In this document: piece after piece, positions 2,319 through 48,784 of the stretch | How the letters are laid out: the number at the start of each line of letters is the position of its first letter | Numbering within the stretch: position 1 is the first letter of the stretch | DNA from: Cenococcum geophilum 1.58 | Lineage: Eukaryota; Ascomycota; Dothideomycetes; Gloniales; Gloniaceae | Assembly: GCA_001692895.1 (NCBI GenBank) | Contig: KV748180.1 | Location: forward strand, 310,001-374,000 | Length of the DNA stretch: 64,000 nt | Reading direction: 5' to 3' | Position numbers and translations under genes: made by a program | Notes under the pieces: generated by a model | Told to the model about the DNA's origin: nothing | Database searches by the model: none | The model's input: the letters and a program-made list of their open reading frames with translations, nothing else

Positions 2319-2930
2319 TTGCTAAGTTCTTACAGACTAACCACTCCTTATTAACGAATTCTCTACTTTATAGGGGATAGCTATATATATATACTTTCCC
2401 TACCCTATAACCAAATTCTACTATAGGGCGTCTAATTTATAAGATAATCCTTATATAAGATAAACTTCGCGAATATTATCTCCTCTATGTTACTATCTTT
2501 TAGCTAACTTTTACTTTTAGAGCTATTCTTCTTTCTTAAAGGAGGCAAGTAGAAAATAACGAAATTTGGCTTAAAAGATTGTTAATTAATTTCTATTTAA
2601 TAATGCTAGATTAGCTAGTATTATAGTTCCGCGTTAATATCTATTTCCTTTTTTATTACTTTAATCTTTACTAGCATTTAATTTCTTCTCTTCTTACCTA
2701 TTTTTATATCTCTTTCTATCTCTATATATAATTTATTAAGCCCTTTTTTTAGTATTTCTAATATACTGTCCTCTAGATATTTATACTCCCCTAAACTATT
2801 AAGGAACCCTTTTAATATTTCTTTAGCGTCTTATAATACAATTTTAGGATCTCTATGCCCTATTAATATTAGAACTACTTTAGTACTACTATACTAGAAC
2901 TTACTTAGATTTATTCTTTTCTTTTCCCTA
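2319..2930. other. RIP-mutated intergenic stretch
   Basis: TpA-rich, CpA-poor DNA between repeat copy A and the pyrimidine-rich tract. I see no frame, RNA gene or repeat in it. Confidence 0.5.
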
Positions 2931-3205
2931 TTTTTTTTTTTATTTTTATTTTATTTTTCTTCTTCTCCTCTTTGTTCTTTTTCTTCTTTACTTTCTCCTT
3001 TTTCTTCTTTTCCTTTTCCTTCCTCTCCTTTTCCTTCTCCTTTTCCTTCTTTTCCTTTTCCTTCTCCTTTTCCTTCCTCTTCTTTTCCTTCTTTTTCTTT
3101 TTCTTCTCCTTCTTCTTCTCCTTTTTTTTTTCTCCTTTTCCTTATCCTTTCCTTTCTTCTCTTTTTTTTTTTTTTTCTTTCCCTTTCTTTTTTTAGCTTT
3201 TTTTC
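2930..3205. repeat. Low-complexity polypyrimidine tract (CT-rich)
   Basis: The plus strand is almost pure C and T for about 275 bases; the minus strand reads as a Lys/Arg run. It forms the 3' end of the decayed minus-strand frame at 2,988-5,040. Such tracts have few CpA sites, so RIP leaves them open in several frames. A second tract of the same kind is at about 4,255-4,395. Confidence 0.85.
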
Positions 3206-5040
3206 CTTTTTCTAATTCTATTAGCTTCTTATACTTTATTACTAGGGAATTTTTCTTACCCTTTATTACTTCCCTGTTCTTATTATCTTCTTTATTATCC
3301 TTATTATCTTTTTTATTATCCTTATTATCCTTATTACCCAAGTTATCTAAGTTATCTGAGTTATTTAAGTTGCTGTCCTCTTCTTCCTCTAATAACTTAT
3401 TTAATAAGGAGTTGTCCTTATTATCCCTAGAGGAAAATAAGCCTAAGTTGTCCTTATTACCCTTATTATTTAAATCTAAGTCACTATTCTTTTCCTCCTC
3501 TAATAACTTATCTAATAAGGAGTTATCCCTAAAGGTAGAGTTATTAAAGTCATCCTTAGAGGAAGACAAGTCTAAGTTATTTAAGTTGTCCCTAAAGGAA
3601 GATAAGTCCGAGTTGTCTAAGTTGTTTAAGTTATCCCTCTTTCTAAATTTCCTCTTACTTATCCGCTCCCCCCCCCCTACTAGCATCTATTACTTTCTAG
3701 TATATTTTAGTATACTGTTAAGCTCTAGTTACTTTGCCTTTTTCTAATACCCCTCTAATTCCCTATTAATAAGTCCTGATCCGTATTTATTATATAATAT
3801 AGTCCTTAGGAACTACCTCTTTATACCCTTTACCTTAATATATATAGCTATAATTGGCATATTAGTATAATGGGGTGCGTTATTTTTAACTTTTGAGAAG
3901 ATATAACCTTTTAGGCTCAATTCTCTGTCCACTAATACTATACCTTTAATAGCGATGCTTATAAAGGGGACATCCTTAATATGCTTCTTTATGCCTTTTA
4001 TAATTAGCTTAGAGTATTTATCCTTATAGATTTGTAAAATCCCCTTATTAAATCTTCCGCTTATAATAAATATATACCTTTTATAACTATTAAATATCTT
4101 TAGATGCTAAATTAAGAGCTAATAGCCGCTATAACCCGCCTCCTACTAGCCCCTAAGCCACTACTATTAGCTATCTAATAAGACTCGACCTCGCTTCTTT
4201 GTCGCTGCTAAAGGTTTAAAAGTTTTATTAGTGTTATCTTTGGTAGCCTTTATATAATCCTTCTTTTTCCCTTTCTTCTTCTTTACTTTCTTTTTTCCCT
4301 TCTTCCCTTTCTTCTTTTCCTTTTTCTTTTCTTTCTTCTTTTCCTTCCCCTTTTTCTTCTTCCCCTTATCTTTCTTGGCTTTTTTCTTCTTTATAGATAG
4401 GTCTAATTATAAAAACGCCTACCGCTCTACCTGCCATCTTTTAAGAACATCATTATTAAGAGTAAGGGTAAAAGGAAGAAAGTTTAGAAGATCCTTTCTT
4501 TGTTCTCTATACTAGGCTGCTAGTAATTTAGTATTAATTATATCTAGGTAGTTTTTTGCTATCCCTATACCAAAATTATCTAGTTCTCCTTTTATTATAT
4601 ATATAAGTATATTTCTTAAATCCTTTAGTAATAGAAGAACCGTCCTATAACAAATAGTGCCTAAGAGTTTATGGTAGTTGTGTGCTTTATTATATTTAAT
4701 AGCTTTTTAATTTGCTTTTCTTAGGTTATTAAAAGCTGTAAAGTTGTTTCTAATAACGACTCGCCAAAAAATAGGAACTAACTTTTTATTTTAGTGGTTA
4801 GTATAAAATTCGCTAACTTAATTGGGATTAAAATCATTATCTTTTATTTCTTAATCTCCGTCCTTATCTGTTATTAAATCTTATAGCGCGGTTAAGGACT
4901 TACTATAGCTAAACCCGTTATCTAGCTCTGGCCTCTTTATGCCTTTTTTTTACTATTAAAAGGATAGTTAAAGTTAATCGGACCCTTCTTAGGGGTTTAA
5001 TTCTTTATTTCTTTAACATATTCGCTTAGAACATTAAGTT
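2988..5040 (-). pseudogene. Decayed protein gene with Lys-rich segments, family unknown
   Basis: One minus-strand frame runs from about 5,040 to 2,988, nearly 690 codons, with roughly 20 in-frame TAA/TAG codons and one apparent 1-base slip in an A-run near 4,945. Reading order: a mixed region that begins ELDNGFSYSKSLTAL, a segment with KAHNYHKLLGTICYRTVLLL, a poly-Lys run, the basic motif KKRGRVLLDS, then IYKDKYSKLIIKGIKKHI and IAIKGIVLVDRELSL. The end is Asn/Asp/Leu-rich repeats followed by Lys/Arg. The last 232 codons (from 3,686) are still open because Lys, Asn and Asp codons contain no CpA. I recognise no family. The stop pattern (CAG, CAA and TGG hits) is what RIP makes of a real gene. 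Surviving expression seems unlikely. Confidence 0.6.
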
Positions 5041-7790
5041 TTTTAATAACGTTTATAATAACTATATAAAAGTTAGTTGTATATTATATATATATTAAAC
5101 TCCATACTTTAAAGAGCCTTATTGCTATTATTTACGCCACCCTACTTTAGATGTACTTTCTATACTACTTTCTACTACGCTTATATTTTCTAAGTAGGAC
5201 TTAGGTTATCGCCCTTTTTAAGTTAAATAAATTTTAGTGGACCGGCGTTGTTATTACTCTACTTAAGAATTTTGTTAATCTTATTCTGGCGTATTTAGTT
5301 TTCTTATTTAGGTTTAGCTGGTTCTTTAGCCCTATCTCCCTTCCTCTATTACTTCTTCTAAAGATTATTATTAGGGAATAAAGTTGCTTATAGAGTAGGG
5401 GGCGCGCTATTAGCTATTTTTAATAAATTGGCGCTAGTGCCTAATGATAAATTTCTAAAGATTTAAATAAAAGGAAACTACCCTTTTATATTTACCTTAA
5501 TTATATATAGTGGTATATATTTAGACTCTAGTAATTATATATAAACACTACTATATATAATTTATGTCTATTTTAGTAAATTAGGAAGGGGTACGGCCTT
5601 AAAACTAAGGTAGCGTTTTATTAAATATAGGGTAGTATTAGCCCTTTTAATCACGTCTATATAGAGGGTCTTAAATGTACTTAATACGTAATTTAAATTA
5701 AATAATTTACTATCTATAGAGGTTGCCTTTATTACTCGCATTACTAGCAGATCACTATATTATTTAAAAACACTATATTACGGCTAGTTTTAAAGCATAA
5801 AGTAGGCAAATATAGATTTTTAAACTATTTAAAGAAATATCTTCTAAAGCCTCTCTAACTTAACTAGGATATTAAATCGAGTTAACTAGGATCCGAGTTA
5901 ATAGGAAATCTTATATAAAGGCGAGGTATAAAATACCTAAAAGAGTTTCTTAAGCCATCTTATTATCTAGATGTTACTAAATTTGCACCTACTATAATAA
6001 AACAACTACTTTAAGCTTAGCAATCCTTATTTGTTTCCTTTTATTCTTTAGAATAATATCCTATATTTTAAATAGCTTGTTGGATTAATTTTATTCCCTA
6101 ATATCTTAAAACATCTTTCTAAGTCATTTAGCCGTCGCGGTCGCGTGACTTAATTGCTTTCGGTAATTATTAAGCCTCCTTTTTAACTCTTCTCTAGCTT
6201 TATGGGCTTCTTATTACTCCTTATATCTCTAATTTTAAATCTAGGAAATTACTATCTAATTATAAGAAACTTAAGTTTCTAGACTATAAATATATTATAT
6301 TGTCTATTACTCTCTAATAAAGAAGTCCCTAAAGAAGTCCTAATCTGAGCGCCTATTATATATCTTACAGTACTAGCAATATCTAGGGTCCTGTAATTAT
6401 TAGTACTTAAGTAGTTTTTTTCTACTAGAGGTATACCGCTAAGCTATAGCACTAGCTTTTATCCTTATAGTTAGTATAATAGGTTGCGTTATTTATATTT
6501 TTAGAGTATAATGCAATTCTAGAATAAAGGCTTCCTATACCAGTATATAAATCAACATTTTAATTATAGACTACTGCTAATTATAGGTTATGTCCGTTTT
6601 ACTATAGTATATAGGAGAGGTATAAGTATATATTACCCTAGCACGACCGCTAAGCGCTAATTGCTTATTACTAAAAGAAAGATCTATATATACGCGTACG
6701 TTTCTACTAAAATTACTATTAAATACCGCCTACCTTGAAATTAAAGAGCTACCTATTCTAAAATTATGTGCAGCGCTAGATAAAACCGTTTTACGCTACC
6801 CTACTATTAACGTTGCTACTTTACTAACTTAAAAGGGAATGGAATAATAATATAGTTTACGCTAGATCTAGCTTATACCTTCTTGCTAAGTTAATAGCTA
6901 TAGGTATATAGAACTATAGGGGTTAGGGGAGGAAAGGTAATTCCTAGTCCTATATTCTGTGTTAAACTATATAATAAGCAAAAAGTTAGGAGTCCTCTCT
7001 GCAATTTACCTACTGTATTGGTAGCCCCTTTTTAGTTTACTTGCTTATATCTAACCTTATAGCTACTTTATAGGCGTGAGAGAAGATTTACTATTTAAAC
7101 TTTTTTAAGCTTTTAGTTCTTCCTAGGATTTTAGTTCTTCTTAGGATTTTAGTTTAGGCATTTCTACTATAACTTAATTACCGACTTTATTTAAGGTAAA
7201 CCGGTAGTCTTTCTGTTAAAGGCCGTTATAAGCTTAGACTAAAAGAGAGGGGGTAGTATAACCTAGAGTTTGCGAAGAAGGTTTTTATTATTTAGTGACT
7301 AACCCTCTAACTAAGTAATAGCCTCTATAGTAGATAACTTTATAGGTAATAAGTTAAGAAAATAAGGGGTTAAATTGCGAGTATCTTAGAGGACGGTCTT
7401 TTAAATCTACGTTCTAAATTAAATAAATATTAATTAGTAAGTTTTTAAGCTAATGCTAGAATACTAATAGAATGGTAGGTAGTAAAGAGCGGCGTAGGCG
7501 TAGTAGGCGATAATAGACTATATATATCTACTAATTAGCTAGCTACTTTATATAGCTCCTAGTGTAACCAGCTAAGCGCTTTATACGTATTAGCTTCTAA
7601 AGAATAATTGCTAGAACTAACTCTAGAACTTACGCCTGTAGCATTACTATCTAAAGTTAATTAGGCGTTTTACGCCTGTAGTATCGCCGGACTCTTTATA
7701 TATTACGAAACACTATAATTAATTAGGCGCTCCGCGAAGTTCGACCGTTAGCTAGATTGCCTTAGGCGCTCTATACTTACTAAGCGCCAG
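5041..7790. other. RIP-mutated DNA, nothing recognised
   Basis: TpA-saturated sequence with patches that look like coding relics, but I could not follow any frame for more than about 40 codons. A short tandem pair ('ttagttcttcctaggatt' and near copy) is at about 7,106-7,145. Confidence 0.4.
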
Positions 7791-7794
7791 GGTT

Positions 7795-8330
7795 TCTAAC
7801 TTAAGGCAGCATTAACGCTAGAAAGATACCTGGCTTTATAATTACTTAAAGATAAAGAGCACCTACGCAGCAAGACTAATATCCTTTTACTTAAACTTTA
7901 TTAATCCTTTTTTACGAGGCCGTATCCTATTATAACTAGCTATAACTCTCTAGCGGATAATAAATACTAGGAGAGAATTATAAATAAAATTCTAGAGATA
8001 GATTGGGGTTTTATTAAAATCGATTCTCTTAACCTTAATAATATTTAGTTTTTAAATAACCTAGATATAGCTACGCTGTAACACTCCGATATATTCTAGC
8101 AACCTTTTAGCTAGGGGGCTATACTAGAATAGCTATAGTTTAATTAGGGAGTTTAGAATAAGTAAGGATATTAGCCTAATCTAAATCTAGGCCTTATGTG
8201 CATATATATTAGCCTAGAATTATTAGCTGAGACCTATATATTAATAGGTTCTAAGCTACCTAACGTCTATATACTAGCATAAGAGCTTTAGAAAAAGTAA
8301 GTTTTGGATTATTAAGAAAAATTGCTTTAC
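7795..8330 (+). pseudogene. Decayed protein frame, unrecognised
   Basis: A plus-strand frame beginning AALTLERYLAL can be followed for about 175 codons. Readable islands include ERIINKILEIDWGFIKIDSL and GLMCIYISLELLAETYILI. The interruptions are TAA or TAG, mostly at positions where Gln or Trp would be natural. I cannot name a family. Start and end are only approximate. Confidence 0.45.
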
Positions 8331-8769
8331 TAATATTGCTTAGACAAGAGCTAATAGCTAAGTAGGTAAAATTAAATGGATTACGTCTTTATTTAAACTA
8401 ATTATTAATAATAGACGGCTTAATTATCTTAACAATTATATAGCTAAGATGCAAGTATAGGCATTCTCTATTAGTACAAGAATTAGGGAGTTAAAGGAGG
8501 TATTAAATAGTGGAAGTAATGGTGGTAAAGGTTAATAATTGGCTAGGTACCGAAATTTGGTACTAGATATTCTAATAGAGTTTTAATATATAGCTTTTAT
8601 AGTACTTTTAAAAACTTATTAATCCCTCGTTTATATCACAAAGCCTTTTCCTAATAATAAATAGCAACTTTCCTCATTAAACGGCATTCCCGCTACAGTT
8701 CTGTAATTTTAATATTTAAATTACCAAGCCCTTTATTAACTCCGTTGCTCTTCTACTACTCTCTTTTAG

Positions 8770-9195
8770 CTTCTATATTCCGTAGTTCTCTTATACCTAA
8801 CCCTTAACTTTTAATTTCGTGGGTTAGATATTTATAGGAATTAAATTCTTTTTAGAAACTATTAGCTTATATTAAATAGTATTAGTAGTTTTATACCTCT
8901 ATAGTTTTAGTTCTTACGGCTCTAATAGTGTTTCTAATACCTAAGTATAAATCCTAATACGCTATAATAGAATGTTTGCTTAGGTGTTTTTTAAAGAGGT
9001 ATTATTTCTTAGGGGTTAGCTGCTATTAGTAAGGGTCGTTATCTCTAATAATAAGCCTTACTTTATTTGGGGAAATAACTATATTAAGCTCGTCTTCTAC
9101 TTACGGCCTAAGTAGATTACTTAAAATAAAAAGATGGCTAATATATTTAAATATTGCGCTAATTGTAAACGGCACCACTATCTCCATCGTACTCT
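8770..9195 (-). pseudogene. Decayed protein frame, unrecognised
   Basis: On the minus strand from about 9,195 to 8,770 a frame of about 140 codons reads MEIVVPFTISAIFKYISHLF, then ELNIVISPNKVRLIIRDNDP, then KHSIIAY and LGIRNTIRAVRTKTIEV, with TAA/TAG interruptions only. The segment may continue beyond both ends. No family recognised. Confidence 0.45.
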
Positions 9196-10600
9196 TTATA
9201 TATTTTTTTATGCTTTATTTTCCTAGTAAAGTTTTAGAGAAAAGTTTGCAATTATATATAACTATACTAAAATTAAAATTTCTATTTTTAGCATCTTAAT
9301 TCTCTTATAACTTTTACTTTAAGTAAAAAAGTGCGCTAGAAACCTCTTTATATACCTTATATAGAACGCGATTAATACTCCCTTTAGGGTCATTTCTTCG
9401 TTAACTATAAACTTAGGTTTTTATGGTAAAATAACCGCTCTCTTTACTTTCCACCAAAATATAGCGTTTAACTTAAGTGTGGTATGCGCGATACTAAACA
9501 GATATGCTAGTTAACCAGTATTGGCTTTATGGAAAGTCTACTTTATTTAACTAGCTTGTCTAAAGTTTGCTAAAGTAGCGGCAAGCTATAGAACTCGCTT
9601 TTATTGGATATAACTTATTATATAGGGTACGGCATAGCCAGTTTAAAAAATAGCGCATTATAACGAAAAGTTATTAGGAAATAGACCCCGCTTTTCTGAT
9701 GCTAAACCTATAGGGTAAGCGGTAGTAATATAGGTGTAATAGTCCACACCCAATTTTCCAGCCTAGCATTGTCTTATTATTTATAGCAATAGCAATACTA
9801 TACGGGCTTTATTATGGCCTTATTAATCCCTTTTAGTATCTTAGTTTAGCTTAATCTTAAAATTTTTATGTTACGTCTTATAGGAATAAGTTTCTTAAGT
9901 CCGCCGAATTGTACTAGGGGTGGTCTTCGCTTTATAGGCATAGCGGGTTTATATACTATGATATAGAGCTAGGCTACTAAAGACTACTAGTAACTGTAGT
10001 GAGGTTAAACTTTGTCGTTTTATGTATAGAGGTCGGGGTATTTATATTATCCAATTATTCTATATACTACCCCTATCTCTTTAGAAGTTAACTATTATAT
10101 AAGATTTGCCTAGAGCCGCTAGGGCTAGTATGTATTAGCATTGTAAAAGCTTAGTAACCTTAAAGCTAAGGAAGTAAACGCTATCCTATCCATTTAATCT
10201 AGAATTGATCTTTCCTAAAAATAGAAAAAGTCCCAGCCACTTTATACGGCAACTCTTTTATATAATCCTAACGCTAAGCAATTTAGATCCTATATCTTAG
10301 CCCTTTCGCAGGCTAGCTATTGCTAGGACAATCTAGGAAATTTTATGTAACTATACCTCGATGCAGCTTCTAAGATTGAGGTGTAGGGCCTATACGCACT
10401 CGCTTCTCTCCTACGCCTAAGAATAATATTATAATAGTTGTGGTTATAGCAAACTCTTCTAAACTTACTTAAAGCTTTTAAACGCTTAACTTAAGTACGT
10501 ATAGTCCCCTTTATTATACCCCTATTAGCACTAATTTAAGCATAGTCTACTTAGCCTAAAGGGCTTTAACTTAGGTTAATTATTACAAAGCTATAGAAAA
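9196..10600. other. RIP-mutated DNA, nothing recognised
   Basis: TpA-rich, CpA-poor sequence with no frame that I could follow and no obvious repeat. Confidence 0.4.
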
Positions 10601-10608
10601 TCATCTCT

Positions 10609-11935
10609 TGCCTTAAGCATGCCAGCCTTAAATATGCCAGCCTTAAGCAGAAACGTAAGAGAAGTGCTAAACTTTTAGTATCTATAAAGGCTAGAAGAGA
10701 TAAAGCTAGAGAAGAGCCTAATAATAGACTGAAGGAGTCTTGTAAATATTAGGAGTATATAGGTTCTAGCTGATTTAATACCATTAATATAAGCTATCTT
10801 ATATAAATAATTTAAACAATTATAAAAAGAGATCTAGCCTTATGGAAAATTAGCTATTTTAAAGTCTTAGTTCCGCTAGACGCGCTCTCTACTTACTTAA
10901 AATCTATAAAAGGCCAAATTATAGGGAAGTATAGTGCTCCCTTAAACTTCAATTATGCGGCTTATATAATACGGCCTTTGCGTACTAAGGAGGTTATAAA
11001 CTATACTATATGCAACCTTATATACCAGGCATCTTTCGATTAATAAGAAGACAAGTTTAGGATCCCGAGGATTCTTTCTTATTAACCGTCTACCGCTACG
11101 AACCTATTTTGCGCTACTAAAATCCAGAATAAAACCCTCTCGTACTTAATTTATTTTACCTTTATTAGTAAAGAACGGGAAACAATTAGTTTAGGTAATA
11201 AGTCACTTTTTAACTATAGGACTTAACTTAATAAGATAAAGGCAAAGATCCCTAGGATATATTTACTATATGTATATATTAGTGGTTCTTGGAATACGCT
11301 AGCAACTATATATATAGAAGATGCTGGACTTAGCTCTATAAATCTTGTTTACGCTAAAGCCCCTAAGTCTTAGTTAATAGTCTCCCCTAACAATACGTGC
11401 CAGTTAGAAGATAGAATTAAGGAGGTTTTTAGCTTTTAAAAGCGAAAATCGAACTCTAAGGTATAGGAGTTAGCCTACTCCTAATTTATCCGGTATATAG
11501 ATCTTATGCTATATAAGGAGTTGCTTAATCTCTGGCATATTCGCTACGAAATTACCTATTACTAGCCTAGGGAAATGGTTATCACGTTACCGTATATATA
11601 TTATTAAATTTTAAATAATGGAGTTAATATTACTAAAGCTATTAACTTCGCACTTAAGGAGGATTAGGAACCTCCTCCTAACTATTAGTTCTATAGCAGA
11701 AAATATAGCTAGGCTTCTATTACGGAGAATGACCTTAGTATTATTAGAGGCGGGCCGCCTAAAAGGTAGGTTAATTTATACATGAATCTACCTTTACTAA
11801 TTCCTTTAGCAGCAATAACTACCCAAAAATTAGCGCCGTTTGAGGGAATTTAACTGTCTTTGCCCTTATAGAAGGAAGCGCTAACGTAGAGTATATCGCC
11901 CTATTATTATCTAAAAAGCAACGCATCTCTTTAAA
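10609..11935 (+). pseudogene. RIP-decayed JmjC-domain protein
   Basis: One plus-strand frame of about 440 codons holds without a shift. It opens with a 15-bp in-frame repeat (KHASL, KYASL), a basic stretch KARRDKAREE, then DLALWKISYFKVLVPLDAL and NFNYAAYIIRPLRTKEV. The JmjC signature follows: SGSWNTLATIYIEDAGLSSI (about 11,280-11,335), where the tyrosine codon at 11,311 sits at the first iron-ligand histidine of an H-x-E motif. Then come APKSxLIVSP and a closing segment EMVITLPYIYY (about 11,568-11,604) ahead of NNGVNITKAINFA. That end matches the family pattern of a P-Y-x-Y-H second iron ligand followed by a [HN]G-N-x-A-E-[AS]-x-N-F-A-like stretch. CAC/CAT-to-TAT and CAA-to-TAA changes explain the lost residues. 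JmjC proteins are 2-oxoglutarate/Fe(II) oxygenases, often histone demethylases. The subfamily is not clear. Confidence 0.75.
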
Positions 11936-12199
11936 CCCTACTATTAACACGAATATTTTAGACGCGTTGCGTTATAATTTTTAATAATTAACGCCCCCTA
12001 TTCCAATTCTGTTCTCCTAATTTAATAATATAGTTATTACTTCCGGCCTTTCTCTTTTATTTATTATACGGACAATATAGCTAATATTTAACTATATAAC
12101 TGCGCGTATTATTATTAATTTATTATAGGAATCTCAGAGCAAGAGTAAATTAGTTAATTCTGCCGATAATAAGGTTAAGAATATTTATCGCATCCGCGC

Positions 12200-12655
12200 C
12201 TATATTTGAGATATAAGGTAGGCTGAAAGTAGGATGTATAAAGGCGTCATATAAAGGCGAATTAGTTAAGTTAAATTGCGGGAAAGCTTTAACTCCTATA
12301 TCTAAGCTAAATCAGCTATCTTTTTGGAAAGGCGTAAAAAGAGCTAGCCGTAAAATGATGTTGTTCCTAGTAGGAAAGCCTAGGACTATATTTAAAATAA
12401 CCTAATACTTAAGTTATTTAATAGAGATTGGAAAATTCTAAGAGGCACTAGAGATTCTGCCGTTAGGATGTTTAAGTATAACCTTAAGGTTGGCGCAATT
12501 CTTAAATTATTCTGCTCCGTCTATAGTATTTAAATTTTATCTTTCCTCTCGTCTATAGACGCAGAGCCCTAGCTTCAGTTTTTAAAAGCAAGCAATTACC
12601 TATAGTTAAAAGATCTTACTAAAGCAATTGTGCTATTAGAGTAAGTCCTTAACTA
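12200..12655 (+). pseudogene. Decayed protein frame downstream of the JmjC relic
   Basis: A plus-strand frame of about 150 codons. Its best island is NRDWKILRGTRDSAVRMFKY (about 12,421-12,480), followed by NLKVGAILKLFCSVYSI and LQFLKASNYL, ending in KDLTKAIVLLE. Stops are TAA/TAG. It may be the 3' part of the JmjC gene or a separate gene; the 265 bases between are too decayed to decide. Function unknown. Confidence 0.45.
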
Positions 12656-15640: not shown

Positions 15641-15649
15641 AGTGGCGCA

Positions 15650-15845
15650 TTAAGGCGTATATTTAGAACTACCACTATTAATAGGGAAGGTAAAGAGGAT
15701 ACGCTAGATAGAGCTATACTAGAGGGAACTGCGCTAGAGGTGTTTTAGAGGGAGCTATGGTATAGGCTACGCTAAGCCGCGTTAGATAAGGTTATATTAG
15801 AGGAGGCTAAGATTAGAACTTTAGTATAGAGCTAGGCTTTATATA
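15650..15845 (+). pseudogene. Short decayed protein frame
   Basis: About 65 codons read NREGKEDTLDRAILEGTAL, then RELWYRLR and LDKVILEEAKIRTLV, with TAA/TAG only. Charged and probably helical. Unrecognised. Confidence 0.35.
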
Positions 15846-16710: not shown

Positions 16711-16714
16711 CTTT

Positions 16715-26149: not shown

Positions 26150-26269
26150 CCGCTATAGGGCTGCTTAGTATAAATACTATTAAACTTTTAACCAATTTCC
26201 AACTAACTTCTAACACTCTCTATAATACTACTGTTTATATTATAGCCCTTTAGCCACGAGTAATTATAA

Positions 26270-28024: not shown

Positions 28025-28110
28025 TAGAGTTTAGTTAGAGTTTGGTTAAAGTCTAATTAGAATCTGGTTAGAACCCAGTTAAAACCTAGTTAGAGTCCTA
28101 TTAGAAAATA
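28025..28110. repeat. 12-bp tandem repeat array
   Basis: About seven degenerate copies of a 12-bp unit like 'agagtttggtta' run head to tail. Confidence 0.65.
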
Positions 28111-30860
28111 GCCGCGAATTAGTAAATAACTAAAGTCTAAACCTTATTCTGCACTTCCTTTAAAGCGTCTCTATTTCGCCATAATATATTATAATATACT
28201 AGGCGTATAGAGGCCGAGCTAGATAAAAGAAATACTTTAATCTTATTTGTTAAAACGCCTAAACTAGCTCCCTAGCTTCCGTTATCGATTTAAATAGTAA
28301 CCTACCCCTTTAGGATCAGAGCCGCGGTCCCTAGTGCGTAGCGATCTCTTTATATATATAGTAGTAATATGCCTATATATATGCTCTAGCGTCTCCTAAG
28401 GGGGCACTAATGAAAAACGATACTATTAGCTTCCTCCGTATACTTAGCTTATTACTAGTTTTATATATATAAGTAACCTCCTATACCAAATATAAGGTTC
28501 CTATAATCTACCACGATTTTATTAATTAAAGTAGTATATATATACTATGGATTCCGGAATAGCTCTAATATTAAAATCCATATATTACCCATACTTTACC
28601 TAGACGGAAAATTATTGTCATTACCTTATAAAATGTGCGACTATATTTAAATAAAGCTTAAATGCGGCCATTTTATTAATAGAGTAAAAACGTAGTGCCT
28701 AAAATACTATAAGACCTATAAACTATGTCCTTCTAATGTTATAGAAATGTAAATATAGAGACCTTCTAATCCACTCTAAGGTTATTGCTTACGGCGTGAT
28801 TTAGAAAGGGCTACCCGGATAAAAACTGCGGTAAGCTTCGAAGCAGCTAAAAAGATTGGGTGGTTAGCTTATTAAAACGTATAGCGGACTGTTAATTAAA
28901 ATTATAGATAAAGTAGAGGATATAATTTGCCTTTAAAACGAGGTTATTAAAGCTCTAAATAACGCGAATTCTTAACGCTTTATTGAACTCCCCTATAGGA
29001 ACCAATGTTCTATAGCTTCCGTTCTCCTATTCCTAGCTAAGTAAAACTTAAAGATAATATCTACCTGGCTAAGTCTTCGTCCTTATAACGCTATAGCTTA
29101 CGCTTTACCTATTTTATGGCTTCCTCTCCGTTTTCTATCTTTTTAACTATATCTAATAGCACTTTGCCTAGCTTCTGCGACCTATTTAAAAGAAAAATCC
29201 TAAGTAGGGTAAACCGTCTCCTATATAGGGGGGAAGCGCTTAAAGTAGGACGGAAACCAAATATGTCTAAGACCTATAAAACTGTTAACATATAAAAAGC
29301 CATATTATTTATAATATTTACCTTAACCTGCTTAAGTTGGTCATTAAAGGAGATCTATTTAAAGAATTTTTAAGAAGATAGAGCATTTTTTATCTAAAGC
29401 CAATTATTCCTATCCTCTACCTTATATTCTACCTGTTTAATTATTTCTAGCCCGCCTTTTATAAGTATAAGATCACCTAAGAATACCGTACGTTTAACTA
29501 CTAAACTATTAGAATTAAATATCCCTAAAAAGATATATTCGCTATAATATAGGTGCGGGCCTTATTGTTAACACTACCGTATATAGCAGAGGGCAAAAAT
29601 ATCTATAACCTATAGAACTATTAGACTAATATAACTAAAGGGTATATAGTATCTTTTACCTTAATACTATTATAATCTATACTAGGTTTATTAAAGCCCT
29701 ATAGGAAATCCTAAGGAGAAACTAGAAGATAATCTAGTCTAATAATTAAATTGTCCTTTATAATTTCCGGCAGCTTTATTATAATGTTATTCTTAAGGTA
29801 AAAGTGCTAGGTGAGAATAATAACAAGAGTAGAGGTCTAGTGGCCTCTTTATATAGGACTAGAGGATATATATTTATATACGCTCTAGGGCATATTCTCT
29901 TTACCTATAAATATTAAGACAATTTCTATAAGTCGCCCGCACCTCTTCTATAAGGCGCGTTAGTATAATAACGGTTTTTAGGAACAGGCGGTATTATATA
30001 GGCCCTACCCTACTAAAAATCAGCCCCGCTAAAGAAAAATCAGCCCCTTTAAAGGGTCTTAATATCTATTCACTAATGCATCCATTACTTATATCTTTCT
30101 TAGACTTATTATATCCGCACTATAGATAGCTTCTAGCATGGATAGCAGATATTTAAATTACTTACGCGTCTTTCTATTAGCACGGAGCCAATCCTTATCC
30201 TCCTAAAAGAAGGACATTCCCTTTTATAAAATACCTAATAGTAAAGCAACGTTACCTTATATTTCACTATATATTAAGGTATTACCAACGCTAGGTAGAT
30301 TAGCAGTATGCTAATAAAAAATATTTAGAAAATCGCTAGGTAGCACGCTGCTAAAATCCTCCGCACTACTAAAGACGCGGTCTCCGTCAAAAACCAATAT
30401 CTAGTATATTACAATAATATAAATAAGGAAATTTAGGCGAACCCCGGGGATAGCGCGGTAAAGGCTATAGTAATATTAGCACTTAGCTAGCTAAGTTCGG
30501 ATAACGGTTTACTAGGGTTTAAGATTTCTACAAAATATAAATACCTTAAACTTCAGAGCGGCAATATAATAGGCGCACTTAATAATACGCCTTAACACTT
30601 TATAGGGAAGGGGGGTGGATATACTTATATATCTATATAGGTCTATACGGCCACAGCCTTATAGGAGCCGTCTAAGGCCGCGGGTTCCTCGGAAGCAGAG
30701 TAGGAATGATATTAAAATATATAGGGAGTGCTATATTGCGAATTCTAGTTTAGGTTAAGGCTTACTATATATGGAAATATAGGGTACAAATTAAGCTAGT
30801 TATTTATCACTGTAGTAACTAGCGGAGTAATTGGCTGGAGATTAGAATTTAAATCGAGAG

Positions 30861-31105
30861 GAATTAATAGAGGATCTGAATAGATTTTAGGAATTAAGAG
30901 GTTTAAAAGGGAAAGGTACTTTGGAATTTAAGTAATAGTCTAGGTGTATATTAGAAGGAATTAACAGTAGATCTAAGTAGATTTAAGGAATTAAAATAGG
31001 TTTAAAAGAGAAGGACATCCTAGGGGTTAAGTAATAGCTTGGGTTAAAAGGGATTTCTAAAGGGTATAAGTAGATCTTAGGGATTAAGGTAGATCCGGAA
31101 GGCAA
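30861..31105. repeat. About 97-bp tandem repeat
   Basis: Units starting 'gaattaatagaggatct' (30,861) and 'gaattaacagtagatct' (30,958) repeat through 'gaattaag' and 'ggtttaaaag'. A partial third unit follows near 31,067. Divergence between units is moderate. Confidence 0.65.
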
Positions 31106-31409
31106 TAGTATCTTAAGAGGGTCTAAATAAAGATTGGCTAGTATAACTATGCTATATTAGTTCCTTAAAGACGTTAGAAATATTTAATTAGAACTTCTAT
31201 TAGGGACGGCTTGCGAACTACTTATTTTAGATAACTCACGCCTAGTATATTTGGTATTAGACTACTTAGTAATAATTGATCTTTTTATACCCCTAGGGTT
31301 TTAAATAGCGCTGCTAGCTTTAGGCTAACTTATAGAGTTAGTATTAGCACGATAGAGATATGCATCCTTTAGGTTCCTTGCTAAGGGGGACAATTCCGTC
31401 TATTTTTAG

Positions 31410-32400
31410 CATTGTGGTTATGTTTTTATCCAAGCAATCAATATATTAAATTCTTTAAGTGCTATATGCCTTTTAATACTATTATAGGTTAGTCGTTAAT
31501 TTAATAGAGATAATTAAAAACTAATATTATACTAGAATCTAGGTTATAGAGACTAATAAGTACTTTAGGTTTAAGACGACTCCATTTCTAGCTAGCAATA
31601 TTATTTAGTTTAAGGCGCTCTCCTCCTAATAGATAGGCTATCTCCTATGCCAAAGCTCTAAATCGTTAGCCCTTTTTAGGCCTATAACCTTCTTTCTTTA
31701 ATCGCTCTACCTTATTATTTAGCGTCTTAGATAGAATAGACTTTATTAACCTATAACTAACTGCATTTTTGCCTGCGTTAAGGATATTAGCTAGGTTACG
31801 AATTATTACCTAGTTATTAGCTCTTGCTAGTTTAATATATAGTTCCTAGAGGGCTTTAAGTAATCTACCCTTAGCCAGATTATAAAGCTTAAGGAACTAT
31901 TCTAATTCGCGATTATTTAGAGACTAAATTTTCGTGCAAACTATAACTAGTCGCTCTATAGCTGCCGGCGATAAATTCTAGCGTTTTATAAGCGTGGTTT
32001 CTGCTCCCTTAAAGGTAGGGCTTCCTCCGTAAAGTGGGTCTAGGCTTTTATTAGGAGGTAGGGTTCCTTATCTTTTAAAAATCCGGAATAATAAAATAAA
32101 TTTAACTATGGCTTTTCTAGTCTCTAGATCTATAGGGGTTGTTAAGGCCTCTAGGGCTTTTATAGCTTTTAGGGCTTTTATAGCTTTTGGGATTACTAGG
32201 GCGTTCTAGGGGCCTAAGACCGTTAGGGTTTTATTTAAGCTAAGCGCCTCTCTATAGTTAGTGGGTAAGGCCTTTAGAATTTTATCTACTACTCTTTTAT
32301 AGGCTTTTACTGCTTCGCCTTTATTAGTAGAGCGTAGGAATTACGTAAAAAGCTTAATCTTATTTAACAATGACTATTATCTATAAGTACCCCTTATAAG
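31410..32400 (-). pseudogene. Long decayed minus-strand protein gene, unrecognised
   Basis: From about 32,400 down to 31,410 one frame holds for about 320 codons with roughly 15 TAA/TAG and no shift. Islands in order are STNKGEAVKAYKRVVDKILK, ALPTNYREALSLNKTLTVLG, VIPKAIKALKAIKALEALTT, TRKAIVKFILLFRIFKR, SPAAIERLVIVCTKI, FLKLYNLAKGRLLKAL, ELYIKLARANN, VIIRNLANILNAGKNAVSYR and EIAYLLGGERLKLNNIA. It is leucine- and lysine-rich and largely helical, with a central KAIKAL repeat. It is clearly a former coding gene; no family comes to mind. Confidence 0.55.
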
Positions 32401-34589
32401 AGGAGTAATAGAAGGTAAACCTATGGTATAATAAGGACGGACGGTGCGAGCGAGCTATAATAGTGCACTAGGAAGGACTGCTTCTCCGTTCTATAATAAA
32501 TAATAATTAGCTTTAGAAAGGGAAAGGCCATAGAATAGAATTACCGTGGCACTAAAATCTATTTCACTACACTTCTAAAGCAAAGAGGCATTCGTAATCC
32601 TATAGGCTGGCTAAACTAAAAAAAGAAGGCAATGGGGTATAAGAGTAAGGGAAGTAGGAAATGTTGTAGGGGATTATCGTTGCGATCGCAATAATAATAT
32701 CCCTATAATTTTAACTTAGTATATAAGGGTAAGGGAAGTAGGAAACGTTATAGGGGATTATCGTTACAATCGCAACGATAATACCCCTATAATTTTAACT
32801 TAGTGTGTATTAGCCCCTCGCCTTATTATCCCTAAGACGCTATACTTTACTAAACTCTACTACTATAACTTATGCTCCTCTAAAGATCTATAATGGAAAA
32901 CTAAATAGCTAATTAAAGTAAGGATTTATAGCTATCTCCTTGGTTAATTAGACGTAGCTTACCTACTGCTATAAAGTCTAGAAGCTCTTATTAATTTCTT
33001 TTTAACAATGTAATAATACGTCCTATAAGAATTAAAAGCTAAAACGCCTTAATAAACCTAAGAATGCTTTAAATCTTAAGGGTATAGAATAGAGATGAGT
33101 AATATATAAAGCTAATTTTGCCCCGTTACTAGGGATATATAGTTGCCTTTACTATCCACTTTACTAGTTACCTTATCGCCTTCTTCTACAGCTTTTATTT
33201 ATCACTTCCTTAACTTTATTATTTTTACCGCTCCTTTTAAACTATTCCCTAGTCTATCCTATTTCTGCTAGCTATTTACAGCCACTTTATTCTTTAATAT
33301 AGATGCTACTTCTTTAATAATTAGCTCGCTCTTTTAAGCCGTAATTTACTAGACCCTACTAGTCTTAAACTAGTATATTTAGCAGCCTCTTATGACCATT
33401 ACTAGCAGCTAGGATTGAGATTTGGGCTATAGTATATTAACTATTAACCTTAGCCTAGGAGTAAGTGCCTTATTATATACTAATATTAATCTAGAGAGGG
33501 CGTCTTTAATTATATTAAAAAGCTATCCTAGATTAACCACTAAGCTTAAAACTTCTTCGCGTTTTAGCACTTACTAACTTAAGGGTATATAAGGCTAGTA
33601 AACGGAATCTTTAAAGTCGTGTCCTAGTACCGGCCTATTGGGGCATTAAATTACTATAGGCCTAAAAGATTAATAAACGGTAGGTGTGGGTCTGGGAAAT
33701 CCCAACCGCCTAAAATATTAATAAGTCGCTTAAACACCTGATGATTTAATATTGAGTGAAATTCTCTGTATCTACCTAGATAAGAGGACTATAGATAAAC
33801 TCTCTTACTTCTTAATTTATTCCTTCTCTAAGTCTTAATAGGAGTTCCTTGGTGCTCTTTATAGAAAAACTAGAGAGTAATAAGTATGGGATATTATCTA
33901 TTTACCTACTTTCCTTAAAATAATATATAACTACTTTAACGTATATACGTTTTAAGTATGTTTAATATCTCTTATATAGTATCTATTCTAATTAAATTAT
34001 AGACTATAATTTAGGGGAATCTCTAAAGTTTAGAGAACTATATTAAAGAAAAAGGTATAGAGAATGTTTTAAAGTGAAGGCTACGTCTATCTATTATAGA
34101 CCCTTAATAGTAGTCATTTATATCTAGCTTAGGAAACTAAATCTTCTACCTTAGTACCTTATCTTTGCATCTAATAGTATTTGGCAGCGTTAGGCTTATA
34201 TATATACATTCCTAAAGATTAAGTATTAAGTAACACTAAGTAAATATAAAATGTATAATAATAAATTAGCATAATGTATATAGCGATAATTCTTAGCTAT
34301 ACCTACTGTACGGAATCCTTTACCAGATTCTATCTAAAGGAAGGGTAAAATGGTAATACTAAAGAACCTAATTCCGTTAGTTGGAGTAGGGGCTATAGCT
34401 ATTATATCTATAATGGTCCCAATAGCTCTTATCTAATTAATATTATAACTTCTTCGTATATCTTTTAAGGGTGCTCCTCCTTCTGCTACCAATTTTGCTT
34501 TCCTTTACTCTCTCCTGCGATGGCTACTTGTTAAATTTAACCGCTTACGCATATAGATATATTTTAAGCAACCTATGTTATTATTTTAG
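32401..34589. other. RIP-mutated DNA with one palindromic tandem
   Basis: No frame that I can defend; contains the 84-bp tandem at 32,645-32,812. Confidence 0.4.
32645..32812. repeat. 84-bp tandem duplication carrying a palindrome
   Basis: Two units beginning 'gtaagggaagtaggaaa' start at 32,645 and 32,729. Each holds an inverted repeat of about 17-bp arms: 'aggggattatcgtt' at one side and 'aacgataatacccct' at the other, around a 'gcgatcgc'-like centre. Both units end in 'cctataattttaacttagt'. Confidence 0.8.
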
Positions 34590-35165
34590 CTTTTAAAACC
34601 TCCTTATCTTTTAAGATTTAGAGACTATATTTTAAAGAATTCCCAATAGATATATACGACTTTTACGCAGTTAATTTTATTAATACGCTTCTTAGTTCTA
34701 CCTTAAGGGTTTATAGTATAGAAAGCCTATATAATAAAAACAAAGCCAAGGTAGTTAAGTCACTATAGGCTAGGCAAGATTTAACGGTACTAATTAGCGA
34801 AACTGTAATTTCTAGCGTCCTTGTTATAAGTGGCCTAGAACCCTAGCTACTGCCTAAAAAGGGCATTTATACGGTACTACTATTTATTTAGTATAAGTTT
34901 GCAAGCTAATAAAACGAAGGTATTTTCAATAGCCTCCTAGAGGGTATCGAAAATCTACATTAAGATAAAAACCTAAATAATATTGAGTTTTATAAGGAAA
35001 AAACTCAAGCTAAGGGGCATTAGTATAGGTCTTAGGTTGTAGGCTTAGGGGCGTAGCTAATTTTGCACTAGGTACTCTTAAAATTACTAGATAAAAATCT
35101 CTACTCTTACTATATACGGGTCTTATTAGAAGTCTAGTCTAGGTAGAATACTTATTAAAATGGCA
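34590..35165 (+). pseudogene. Decayed protein frame, unrecognised
   Basis: A plus-strand frame of about 180 codons. It opens EFPIDIYDFYAVNFINTLLS, then STLRVYSIESLYNKNKAKVV, DLTVLISETVISSVLVISGL, NEGIFNSLLEGIENL and LLKLLDKNLYSYYIRVLLEV. Only TAA/TAG interrupt it. No family recognised. Confidence 0.5.
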
Positions 35166-36699
35166 GTAAAAAAGTAGAACGAAGAGGGAAAGAAGATATA
35201 GGTGTTAGCTATGCTAGTAAGCCAACTTATTCTAAGGCACTTTGGGTTTAATATTAAAACTAAGTTAATAAAAGGTCCGGTGGAGTATCTATACGGTTTT
35301 AGTACTTATAAACTATAGCGCCATATTATAAGTATATAGCTAGGAGACAAAGATTAATGCGGAGCATAATAATGTAGAAAACTTGCAAGTTACTAGCTAA
35401 AATAAAAGATTTATACTCTTCTCTTTTTCTATTTAGTATCACCTAAAATTATAAATGGTATTAAATACTCGATCTAGTAATAGAATGGAGAAGGTAACTG
35501 ACCCCTATACGCCCTAAGTGCCTTCTTTAGTTATTTGTCGCCTAAGGTTTAGGTAATAACTTATTAAGAAGCCGCTTGGTTAAGTCATTTAATAGTAATA
35601 ATATAGCATTTATATAGCCCGCCTTATTTCTTAGGAATAATATTGTTATAAGCTAGCCTACTTCTACTTTTATCTTTATTCTTTTCTATTTTCTTAGATA
35701 TTTAAGATTATGGCTTCCTTTAGTAGATTCACCTACCCTACCCTTGCCCTTGTCGCAACTACTTAGTTTTTACGGCATTTAAACCCTTTTATTATTAAAA
35801 TAGCGTTATATAGTGCCTTTCTCTACTTACTTATTATTTTCTTCTGGGTAATATACCTCTTTAAAAAGTTAGCCGAAGATTCCGAGGTCTAGCACGTCTA
35901 GCTTTATTGCGTTAGTATCGCTCTTAGTTAGTATTTATGATTATAGCTTTAATAGGATTACCCTAAATACGCATTTTCTATTTGGCTATTAGGTTTCTAG
36001 TATGTGGGTATAATTGGGATAATAGCGTAAACCATTAAGACGGAAATTAAGGCTGTAAGGTCAACTTTAACGTACGAAGCCCCCCCCCTGATTTTAGCTA
36101 TTTTTATAATTATACAACATTAAGAGTTCTATTTTTGGCATTAGAAAATAGTATAAAGGTGATCTTTTACTTTATAAGAAAATTATTTTTCTGGCTTATA
36201 TAGAGTGTTAGGGAGGTTTTGCAATCTATGAAATAAATTGCCCTTTTAATAACCGGGGAAAATGTAACTGTTATTATTAACTTAGCTATTGTACCTAGGA
36301 GCCCCGGCTTCTCTCGCTTTTATAATATAGTAAGTAACTTCTGGCGCTTTAACTCCTCGCAGTAACCCTAGGACTATTAGTATAAGAAAGATCTAATGTA
36401 TTAGCTAGGGGCTGCCTAAATCGTGACCTTATATAGTTCTTCTGCATATTCCGTGACGTAGTAGAAGTATTAGGTAGGCTGCGTTTAGCGCGGCTGCTAG
36501 AACTAGTGGCGTTTAGCTAAATAGTTAGTACGACCCTAGGGAAGGCGGGAGGACTAGTCTTATAAAACCAAACTAGTAGGGGTAATGCTGGTGGCGTTAG
36601 CTAAGACACTTAAATAACTTAAAATTCTCTATTCGCGAAACCCTGCTTTGCTATAATATATTAGGACCTAGTAATTTCACTAATACCTATTTCTAAACG
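35166..36699. other. RIP-mutated DNA, nothing recognised
   Basis: No frame or repeat that I can support; a C-run ('ccccccc') lies at about 36,081. Confidence 0.4.
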
Positions 36700-36734
36700 C
36701 CACCACGCATAATAGATATTAGGGCTAATACTAC

Positions 36735-37095
36735 TGTAAAGTAGGTACGGGATGCAGTTTAGTATAACCTAGAGTAGTGGTAGCGTTTCCTAGTAAGTAT
36801 ATAGGCCTAGGCTAAGGCGCCTTTTTTTAATAAGGATTAGCAGAAATTTACGAATAAGGAAGCTAGAAATATTATTATATTACGGCGCGGCTAGAATAAT
36901 ATAAATTTACCTAAAAGGGAAAAAATTCTAGAACGCGTAAACGAAAAGCTAAGAAATAATAGGTTAAATAAAGTAAACTAGAAGGCTATAAGCTGGCGTA
37001 TACCGAAAGCTATTAAAAGTGCTACTGGTTAGTTTTAATGTAAATATTATAACTAGTATGTTTTTACTAAGTTATATTTTAGTTTTAGGGGACAA
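36735..37095 (+). pseudogene. Decayed protein frame, unrecognised
   Basis: A plus-strand frame of about 115 codons: VRDAV, RFLVSI, AKAPFFNKD, KFTNKEARNIIILRRG, NNINLPKREKILERVNEKLR and KAISWRIPKAIKSATG. Strongly basic. Interruptions are TAA/TAG. No family recognised. Confidence 0.45.
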
Positions 37096-37789
37096 GAAAT
37101 CCTAAGGGGAATTAACTAATAAACCTATTTAGAAGCTTCCGTAGGATCCTATATAAGATAATATATAAAAATAAGTAGCGGGTAGTGCGTGTAGGCGTGT
37201 GGCTATACGGATTATTAAAGATAGGCGTTTAAATTAAAGCCTAATGCAAGCAGTGCCTATCTCGCCTTATAAAATTAGTAGCGTATCGTGCCCTAATTAA
37301 CGTAGCTATGCCTTATGCAAATTTATGCCGTATAATGCTGCTACCTATATAAGTAGTACCTAAAAATATAGAACTTTTACTCTTCTAGTCACTAAGTCTC
37401 TACTATAAAATTAAAAATAGAATATCCTATATAGGCCGGCCGTTTTAGCGCAATCCTTTAAGCTCTAAGAACTATAGGAGTAGGCCTTACTATTTGCTTC
37501 TTGTATTTAAACGTTAAGCCGTTCCATTAGGGTATAATAAGGTATTTAGGTATAAGTATAACTAATAATAAACCTTATATATAAACTTCTGCAGTATTTC
37601 TAAGTTATTACTGTGTTTTAATTTAACTGTAGGCGTGTACGCTACGCGCTTTAGTTTATAGAGGATTTAAGCAGCCCTATATATAGGAAGCCGCTTAGTG
37701 CTAGCAGCTTTGCCGTGCTTCCCTTATATAAATACTTACTTAGTATACTCCATTTCTATTTTCTATAAATACTTTCCTTTTATAACCGG

Positions 37790-39090
37790 TAACGAAAATC
37801 TATTAATAACTTCCTATAATAACTCTGAACTACTAGGCTACTAGCTCTATAAGTAACTAAAGGCGAATTATACGCACTAAAGACTTATTATTAGATAAGG
37901 CTGGTAAAAGCACTACTAACTTTTACGTTAGCAATATAACGAGCGATATTTAGCTCTATCTTTCTCCTTCCCCTTTAGTGGATATTAACGAGGAACTAAT
38001 ACCTACTAAGCTTAATAGCGTTAGGGAGATAGTAATTACTATTAACTCTAGTGTTAACGATATAACGACGAGCATTTAGCCCTATCTTTCTTACCCTCCG
38101 GTGGATATTAATAAGAAATTAATACCTCCTAAGCTTAACTCTCCTAGCGGTGTTAGAGCGACGGTGACTCCTTCTAGTGTTAGCGCGCTAAGCTAACCCT
38201 TTCCCTCTTCTGCGAATGCTACTGAGGACCTAACCTACCCTAATAATAATAATACCCCCTCTATATACTCTAGAGTGGAGGATAGACTTGCTTAAAACTA
38301 CTTTAAAGGGAAACTAAGCACATCCTTAACCCCTATATAATCATCGCCAGTAACACTAGTTAGGGGTTATACCCTTTAGCCGACCGTTTTCGGTTTAGCT
38401 ATAGGAGCAACAGTTGGGGATAATATTATTAAGCATTTAAAAGTTTATATAAGTAACTAGTTTATATTCTTATAGAAGAAAACTAACCACTATAAGAAAT
38501 TTATTACTACGTTTCGTAAAACGGCAAAACTTTATTTTAATAATTGTTAAACATTTGGGCTTAAAGCGGTATTGGGATATAGACGTCGCGGTATAAAGAT
38601 TATCTATTAGTTATTAAATGATCCTAAACTCCTAAAGTATATTAAGATAATCTGTATAACCTATAGCCTTGCTAGCGAGTGGATACTAACGGGAATTTCT
38701 AAGGATAAAGATATACCGGTATTTACGCTTAATAAAGTAGTAGATAGATCTTATAATAATTCTCTAAGGCGCTGGCGTTCTTCTATATATATAGTGCAGA
38801 CTAAAATAAATAAGGGTAAAGAGGAGATAAGGATAGTCTAGTATCTATTGCTAGGGGCGGTTATTACGCATGCGTTAAATAAGGCCGAAAGAAATAGGTG
38901 GTTATTAAGATGTAGTTTTGCGTTTATTAGTTATATAAAGGATAAGCGGTATAAAGAAGTCCTTAAAGCCATTGAGAATTATGTACTAATAGATGGGATA
39001 TTTATACTAATCTAGCTATATAATATATATTCGTTTCCCTGTAGTGGACTTTCTTTAATAACTAGGTGCTTAAAAGTTGGAATGGGATAA
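37790..39090 (+). pseudogene. Long decayed protein gene with 42-residue repeat, unrecognised
   Basis: One plus-strand frame for about 430 codons with roughly a dozen TAA/TAG and no shift. The first third has two in-frame copies of a 126-bp unit (anchors at 37,927 and 38,053) coding a Ser/Pro/Ile-rich repeat with VDINEELIPTKLNS versus VDINKKLIPPKLNS. A low-complexity Ser/Asn/Pro linker follows. The rest is more globular: YKKFITTFRKTAKLYFNN, LNDPKLLKYIKIICITYSLA, SEWILTGISKDKDIPVFTLN, RSYNNSLRRWRSSIYIV, GAVITHALNKAERNRWLLRC and KEVLKAIENYVLIDGIFILI. Function unknown. It lies just upstream of dispersed repeat D and the second large direct repeat. Confidence 0.55.
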
Positions 39091-40609
39091 GTAAAAGGTA
39101 GGATGCAAAGCTATCTATATAAGCCGCTATAGGAGATAAGCTGAGATACTAAAGTATTCTTAATTAGAGCGGTATTAAGACTTAGTATAATATAACTGGG
39201 CTAAGTAAGAATGTGACTTACGCGAGGCGGTAATTAGAGTTTCACGGCTATATATTATATGGAGTATATAAAGAATTCAAATCTATTAGACTAGTAATTA
39301 TAAGATATTCCTACTAAATACGCCAAGAATAAGAATACTAAACTAGAAATAGACCTTTAAGCTAAAAAGAGCACCACTATTTAAGAACGAGGATATCCTA
39401 AAGCATTACCGCTGTCCCTTGCGCATGGTAGCTCTGCCCTTTACTTTTATAGAGTGTACCTATAGTGATCTAACCTTAGTATGCCGGACGCGTCTTTAGT
39501 AAGACTTAAGGGCATCTTTAGAATTTAAAAGCCCGCTTTTATAAACCTAGGTAGGCTTTTAAACTACCTTATATTTACGCCTTAACTTAGTTATTTTTTC
39601 CCCTAGAATATTATTAATCTTCTATTTATTATCTAAGTTTATTTTATTAAATTTGTCTTTTTTAGCCTGGGTACGGCGCTTTATAGTAGGCTCTAGGTCT
39701 AAAACGTCGCTCTAGTTATTAGCGACGCTATTAGGGAATTATTAAGGAATAATATCTAGTATATATAACCCGTTTTCCTAGCGCCTAAGAGCTATTTAGA
39801 TTAACTATTCTTCTAAATTAGTATTTAAGGCGGCTCTAAGTATCGCTTTACTGTAGTTAGAGTTAGAGGCTAAGTTTAATAGCGGCTTTTAGGTATAAAG
39901 GCGATTATATATAGGGGATCTAGCCTAATTATAATAATCGCTGTTAAGCGTAGTGCTCCGGTTGGACGTGTACATAGATGGAATTAAAGGGGAAAGGTAA
40001 GACCGCTAAAGATAATGCTTTACAGCATGCTTTGGTTTTAATCTACTACTAATAGGCGCTAGTAATCCTTGTCGCCCTACACACCCGTGGGCCTTATTAC
40101 TCTTGTTGCTATCGCTATCGCTACTATCGCCGTCCCTAGCGTCGTTATTATCTGTATTGCCGCTGTCGCCGCTTCTATTATTGCAGTTCTCGGCCTTACC
40201 TTTATCTACAACATTCTTACCGCCCTTATTATTATTATTATTATAATTATATTCTTTAGCTAAGCCGTTAATAAGATTATTAAGATTATCTTATAGTGGT
40301 CTAATATTACGGGAAGATAAAGATTGCTAAAGTAAAGGGCTAGTAGGCCACGTAGCAGAGGCCGCTCGCTCCTTAATATGGTTATTGCTACCGCTAAGGT
40401 TAGGGGTGGGAGGGCTAGGAGGCAAGGTTCTCTAAAAAGCTAGTAATCTTTATTGCTTTCTAGGCCGTAGGCTTTTGCTACTCTTGCTAACGGAAGTATT
40501 AGAGATATAATTAATATTGTCTAGTTGCTTAAGTTAATTAAACCTCCGCTTTTTTAACTTCTTAGCTTCTAAAGACTCTTAACTGGCACTTATTAATGTT
40601 TTAAGCTTC
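39091..40609. other. RIP-mutated DNA containing repeat copy D
   Basis: Contains the dispersed repeat at 39,470-39,665. On the minus strand near 40,260-40,070 there is an Asn/Asp/Ser-rich low-complexity frame (NNNNNKGG, DSGNTDNNDARDGDSSDSDS) that resembles the Asn/Asp-rich part of the frame in repeat B and may belong with it. Confidence 0.4.
39470..39665. repeat. Dispersed repeat, copy D
   Basis: Same-orientation partner of 13,020-13,215; about 195 bp with matching order of motifs and frequent transition differences. Confidence 0.6.
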
Positions 40610-48764: not shown

Positions 48765-48784
48765 TTAAGCCTTTAAAGTAGTCG

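Follow-up and report, generated by a model that had tools for sequence, protein, structure and literature searches.

Starships move gene blocks between fungi, and the locus described here raises the question of how a block bearing the marks of repeat-induced point mutation (RIP) came to contain the remains of what look like ordinary protein genes. The analysed window comprises 64 kb of contig KV748180.1 of Cenococcum geophilum 1.58 (C5:310001-374000; negative window positions lie upstream of the window start). The preliminary description placed the block at 2900-39100 and left open whether a segmental duplication, an accessory-chromosome arm or a giant cargo-bearing element of the Starship type had been multiplied. 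Based on searches of the 177.19-Mb genome (162 contigs, a single strain), the block very probably represents the interior of a single copy of a giant transposon of the Starship type, which would have been moved together with its cargo by a captain recombinase and whose copies would later have been ruined by RIP.

The RIP-mutated region and its decayed frames

The RIP signal is seen in all 2-kb bins across window 1-52,000, with TpA/ApT values of 1.52-1.97, (CpA+TpG)/(ApC+GpT) values of 0.30-0.57 and composite RIP indices of 1.00-1.68; the five bins covering 54,001 to the end of the window have a composite index of -0.23 to -0.78 and lack the signature. The mutated region begins before the window start and stops near 53,000, and it consists of two parts, i.e., a giant element up to 43,276 followed by other, unrelated repeats. 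The RIP signal claimed for 2900-39100 was therefore present, but its extent is wider than had been drawn, and those limits enclose only the inner part of an element running from window -26513 to 43276. The features of the window are as follows.

1..43276, plus strand: putative Starship-type element, part within the window (whole element from window -26513, C5:283487, to 43276, C5:353276)
2884..4850, no strand assigned: low-complexity C/T-rich tract with tandem repeats, holding the longest open frames of the block on both strands
11284..11649, plus strand: JmjC domain remnant (PF02373, E 2e-7, above the Pfam cut-off; 6 stops in 122 codons)
20410..20739, plus strand: protein kinase domain remnant 1 (PF00069, E 5.8e-10, above cut-off; 4 stops in 110 codons)
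22747..22845, minus strand: likely MADS-box (SRF-TF) remnant, placed by BLOSUM scan
24252..24536, plus strand: protein kinase domain remnant 2 (PF07714, PK_Tyr_Ser-Thr, E 6.4e-7, above cut-off; 8 stops in 95 codons)
43264..43268, plus strand: right-hand member of the TTTAC direct repeat (left partner C5:283487-283491, window -26513..-26509)
43264..48757, no strand assigned: right part of an older gypsy-like retroelement (3' LTR 48394-48757; 5' LTR copy at window -26955..-26612)

The giant element was inserted about 98 bp inside the gypsy-like retroelement, the LTRs of which match each other at 84.6% over 364 bases. At least 32 other places in the genome are listed for the right part of this retroelement. 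Profile matches to RVT_1, RT_RNaseH and Integrase_H2C2 were obtained in 43277-53005, together with Helitron_like_N and DUF6570, which probably belong to a separate high-copy repeat at 50500-53005. The latter occurs in at least 40 places (40 of 529 candidates scored) and was rejected as a part of the element since the scored places are mostly unlinked to captains. Further families listed for 43277-64000, namely RIBIOP_C and AARP2CN (Bms1/Tsr1 type), acetyl-CoA hydrolase and a Whi5-like protein, are assigned by GC content and type to 53006-64000, where they would represent unmutated host genes.

The block was said to hold at least a dozen decayed frames of 65-700 codons. When stretches of 80 codons with no more than one stop are counted, 2900-39100 contains 35 segments (3,937 codons) versus 7-18 segments (671-1,815 codons) in 20 order-2 Markov shuffles, and 4900-39100, which excludes the low-complexity tract, contains 25 segments (2,395 codons) versus 7-22 (620-2,012). 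Low-stop frames are genuinely in excess, less markedly so without the tract, but much of the claimed dozen lies at the chance level. The lack of TGA, considered as a mark of coding frames, was rejected because TGA-free segments are equally common in shuffled sequence (325 observed versus 319-346 in five shuffles) and do not separate real frames from shuffles.

For profile searches against Pfam, the decayed frames were translated with X at the stops (X-masked). The JmjC protein and the two kinases named in the preliminary description were all matched; for kinase remnant 2, the Pkinase profile itself stayed below the cut-off (E 9.4e-6). Ten frames of 2943-20092 yielded one Pfam match, and ten frames of 23394-43494 yielded one above the cut-off and one below it (Inhibitor_I71, E 0.0094); given so few matches among these twenty, most decayed frames are without a name. 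The two minus-strand frames of the low-complexity tract that were scanned gave no Pfam match. Of the 18 frames scanned in 21601-43300, one matched SRF-TF (E 3.2e-5), and a BLOSUM scan using a MADS consensus gave its best score, 40, at 22747..22845 (next best 28); both likely reflect the same remnant.

In a genome search for JmjC (16 rows; 19 of 19 candidates scored), the domain was present in eight Starship-type copies including the one in the window, each with 5-8 stops, and two more rows with stops lay outside the copies. Six open rows were located elsewhere, among which no open version of the cargo JmjC was recognised in this family search, which does not rank open genes by closeness. A further copy, on contig C45, had no JmjC row among the same 19 scored candidates.

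Copies, captain and cargo

Copies were sought with DNA probes of 2-3.5 kb, which were adopted because long DNA queries were scored for one candidate each and most copies thus stayed hidden. All candidates were scored for three inner probes, i.e., window -19000..-16000 (15 of 15), 5000-8000 (9 of 9) and 24800-27800 (21 of 21). The counts are lower bounds for the left-end, or captain, probe (40 of 280 candidates scored, the window copy included), for the inner probe 34800-37800 (40 of 55) and for the right-end probes (40 of 897 and 40 of 226).

The captain, the four inner probes and the right end were all found in five copies, namely the window copy, C5:2098851-2035183 and those on C6, C31 and C52. 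The C6 copy is colinear with window -26530..43298 in four blocks of 88.9-91.2% identity. The copy on C45 contains the captain and the four inner probes without the last ~190 bases, whereas two truncated copies retain the left four of six probes (C9:1267985, plus strand) and the right four of six (C9:2158221, minus strand); parts of the element at 83-90% were also detected on C17, C15, C11 and C113. Copies free of insertions span 63.7 kb (C5:2098851-2035183 and C52:652812-716545), and the window copy reaches 69.8 kb with its 6.2-kb retrotransposon insertion, or about 63.6 kb without later insertions. The supposition that a gene-carrying unit had been present more than once, and the proposal to look for it in the rest of the genome, were thus borne out by a genome-wide DNA search that recovered colinear copies, five with both ends and three lacking parts.

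A search of all frames for DUF3435 had also been suggested, and a captain with this domain (PF11917) is encoded on the plus strand at C5:284968-285996, 25 kb upstream of the window, and had been missed at first. The X-masked frame matched in two scans, at E 1.1e-68 and at E 2.5e-70 (the latter with 238 bits, cut-off 25.8), with 15 stops within its two matched stretches. The captain points inward, and 1,481 bp separate its first match from the left end of the element. Further X-masked frames upstream of the window matched Pkinase_fungal (FunK1-type kinase, E 1.2e-72), placed roughly near -21160 by a motif, and DUF3723 (E 1.1e-45), in addition to a weak match to rve (E 0.0017). The DUF3723 profile runs on the minus strand; its positions 1-155 fall at window -6478..-5963, and the part from 179 on extends leftwards from -12819. 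Between these lies an LTR retrotransposon of 6,214 bp (-12694..-6481, C5:297306-303519; 218-bp LTRs 96.3% identical, GC 0.43), in which an rve match stayed below its cut-off. As the two parts of the profile stand on either side of it, the retrotransposon interrupts the DUF3723 gene of the window copy; the C6 copy lacks this insertion.

Across the genome, at least 165 matches to DUF3435 were obtained (100 of 346 candidates scored), many with the same exon-like layout and with stops. This is an unusually large captain content for one genome. The DUF3435 genes at C49:752543-753905, C14:1294170-1294712 and C33:1229663-1230259 contain few stops or none, and these possibly belong to other Starships that are still open. 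The surrounding DNA of the C49 and C14 genes has a GC content of 0.48-0.49; the C49 captain (near-open, unmutated) and that of C14 came into question as a living source, but neither has a DNA match to the captain of the window copy, and both were rejected.

The left end is shared with at least 39 other places, all of which start at query positions 50-90 and 29 of which start at 84-90 (for five of the 39, the start is that of the second piece of the match). At most of these places, the inner probes -19000..-16000, 5000-8000 and 24800-27800 have no match. The module of probe 34800-37800 lies 9.9-10.0 kb beyond the captain probe at C29, C11 and C9:702524, and 23.2 kb beyond it in C50 versus 52.3 kb in C52. 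For the small elements on C29, C11 and C9, guessed right termini were matched in none of the three. The pattern suggests different cargo between shared left ends, and we infer an exchange of cargo within a family that looks modular.

A sister group of right ends, e.g., C12:1942140, C3:783559, C52:600510, C7:2057308 and C41:917643, shares the right-hand module. At least 24 places of this group (of 40 scored) stop at query 1944-1951, ~30 bp short of the element end, and a different terminus, AAAATAACT, was found in all five examined.

It might be argued that these copies represent a conventional large DNA transposon or a Crypton-like element, with fixed genes instead of cargo and a relationship to Starships through DUF3435 only. 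The number of captain-end places would suit such an element, and the cargo list is unusual in comparison with common Starship genes; none of 54 X-masked frames matched ferric reductase (FRE), patatin (PLP) or NLR at E <= 0.01. However, cargo that varies between the same ends and a size of 64 kb speak against it, and DUF3723, the inward captain and a TTAC-type site fit Starships, which makes this explanation very unlikely.

Divergence between copies

Across the 63,519 bases over which the window copy aligns with the C6 copy, there are 5,747 differences, of which 5,731 are transitions and 16 are transversions. The alignment contains 18 gap runs, 14 of which have lengths that three does not divide, in agreement with the remark that the frames had decayed almost without frameshifts. 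Among the 3,103 C/T differences, 1,606 stand before A, 479 before T and 277 before G, and a further 519 lie beside a second change and are ambiguous. The copies of the element thus display near-pure transitions, a preference for CpA and the dinucleotide indices of RIP. Against the truncated copy C9:2158221, 1,539 transitions and 21 transversions were counted over 19,375 bases, a higher share of transversions than in the C6 comparison, so the copies may differ in age. The flanking gypsy-like retroelement, with 564 transitions and 38 transversions over 4,361 bases, is older than the element inside it, as its transversions indicate. When three copies were compared, all six two-state patterns were present at C/T sites (80-428 each) and at G/A sites (137-221 each), as expected if every copy mutated separately.

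Ordinary methylation-driven decay, i.e., deamination of 5mC in old heterochromatic repeats, could be invoked for the transitions in place of RIP, and the C/T differences before G and T, outside CpA, are what it has in its favor. About half of the C/T differences nevertheless stand before A, the older flanking retroelement has 38 transversions in its 4,361 bases, and the few transversions beside thousands of transitions within the element leave no time for ordinary decay; we therefore consider this explanation highly improbable. Judged from these alignments, the pattern looks like RIP after a recent spread.

On this footing, we tentatively suggest, as a possibility somewhat short of an even chance, that a Starship lineage turned high-copy, its captain and left end reaching at least 40 places with swapped cargo loads in a recent burst, to which the 16 transversions between two 63.5-kb copies would testify, before RIP followed and wrecked both captain and cargo in all the copies studied.

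Ends, insertion site and relation to known Starships

The termini were compared at 14 left and 8 right ends. All 14 left ends have TTAAAAAAGAAAAT in common, which is preceded by TTAC in 12 of them, the exceptions being C8 (ATAC) and C5:2098851 (TTCC); TTTTTTACTAA is common to seven of the eight right ends, the eighth being that of C45, which is without the terminus. Outside both ends, the flanking sequences differ among copies. The empty site, TTTACCAAATAAA (TTTACC), was read in both related repeats examined (C27 and C18), each of which runs uninterrupted; TTTAC occurs once in this site, and the window copy has TTTACT at both of its ends. The terminal inverted repeat is weak and imperfect, with 18 of 23 bases paired; among 2000 mononucleotide shuffles, 2 did as well.

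A segmental duplication or an accessory-chromosome arm, i.e., a host region copied several times and then subjected to RIP, would explain host-like genes, many copies and large colinear blocks, but it has hardly any probability left in the face of ends identical to the base with unlike flanks, an empty site whose junction reads TTTAC, a captain recombinase close to one terminus and both-ended copies on C5, C6, C31 and C52, and was rejected on the ends and the empty site. It is the Starship among the three original options that agrees with the copies, the DUF3435 captain directed inward near the 5' end, the precise ends with their TTTAC repeat and differing flanks, the empty site and the 63.7-kb length with varying cargo.

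Taken as a Starship, the element suggests the following course. The DUF3435 captain would have excised the whole unit of about 63.6 kb and inserted it at TTTAC sites, with the JmjC, kinase, DUF3723, FunK1-type and MADS-box genes carried along as cargo. Transposition combined with sexual reassortment (or with copying) may then have built up the number of copies, and RIP would have struck each of them separately because they had become repeats, ruining captain and cargo alike in all copies examined. The decayed frames would resemble ordinary protein genes because they are former transposon cargo. Captain-driven spread, build-up through crosses and later RIP are in this way inferred from the anatomy of the copies.

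Many near-identical, separately mutated copies offer a direct measure of insertion order, of RIP intensity per copy and of the accompanying cargo, and if the high-copy reading is true, the genome would preserve a fossil record documenting cargo loads as well as the limits that host defence sets on giant gene-carrying elements. They also call for caution, since decayed genes of host-like appearance within AT-rich sequence can stem from the cargo of a transposon instead of being genes that the host has lost.

Gluck-Thaler in 2022 and Urquhart in 2023 are said to have described Starships as a superfamily of giant transposons in Pezizomycotina. Analogous to these, the element has a DUF3435 captain near one end that points inward, a TTAC-type site, tens of kilobases of cargo and DUF3723. 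PMC12153272 cites TTAC(N7)A as the target site of the Hephaestus family, with which the TTAC core is shared; the C5 empty site TTACCAAATAAA fits this motif, weakly as its surroundings are A-rich, and the final A fits four of the seven right ends of the element.

A literature search that lay outside the founding papers returned no comparable number of Starship copies per genome, and we do not claim its absence from print. According to PMC12153272, A. fumigatus has at most one copy of a Starship, with few exceptions, other species accumulate several, and Starships present in multiple copies can be degraded by RIP, which has been proposed as a limit on their copy number. Unlike the A. fumigatus Starships in that paper, the element described here has many copies per genome, all of those examined being RIP-mutated. 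As described in PMC11905480 and PMC12134995, Gaeumannomyces tritici type A has element-wide RIP in one gene-poor Starship per strain, with an average composite index of 0.2-0.3; RIP across the whole element is common to both systems, whereas the present one reaches 1.0-1.68 per 2-kb bin and has several copies per genome. For the 3' end of Limos in Fusarium falciforme, PMC12257634 gives 813 transitions and 26 transversions, along with RIP in Limos and in the Frontier captain. Divergence is mostly by transitions in both cases; however, the Limos comparison is between species and covers partial sequence, in contrast to whole-element copies within one genome at a ratio of 5,731 to 16. Weak RIP of TEs is described for Verticillium Starship regions in PMC12289983. 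RIP-mutated and multi-copy Starships have thus already been published, and what is new here is one of degree, i.e., the copy number and the near-pure record of transitions.
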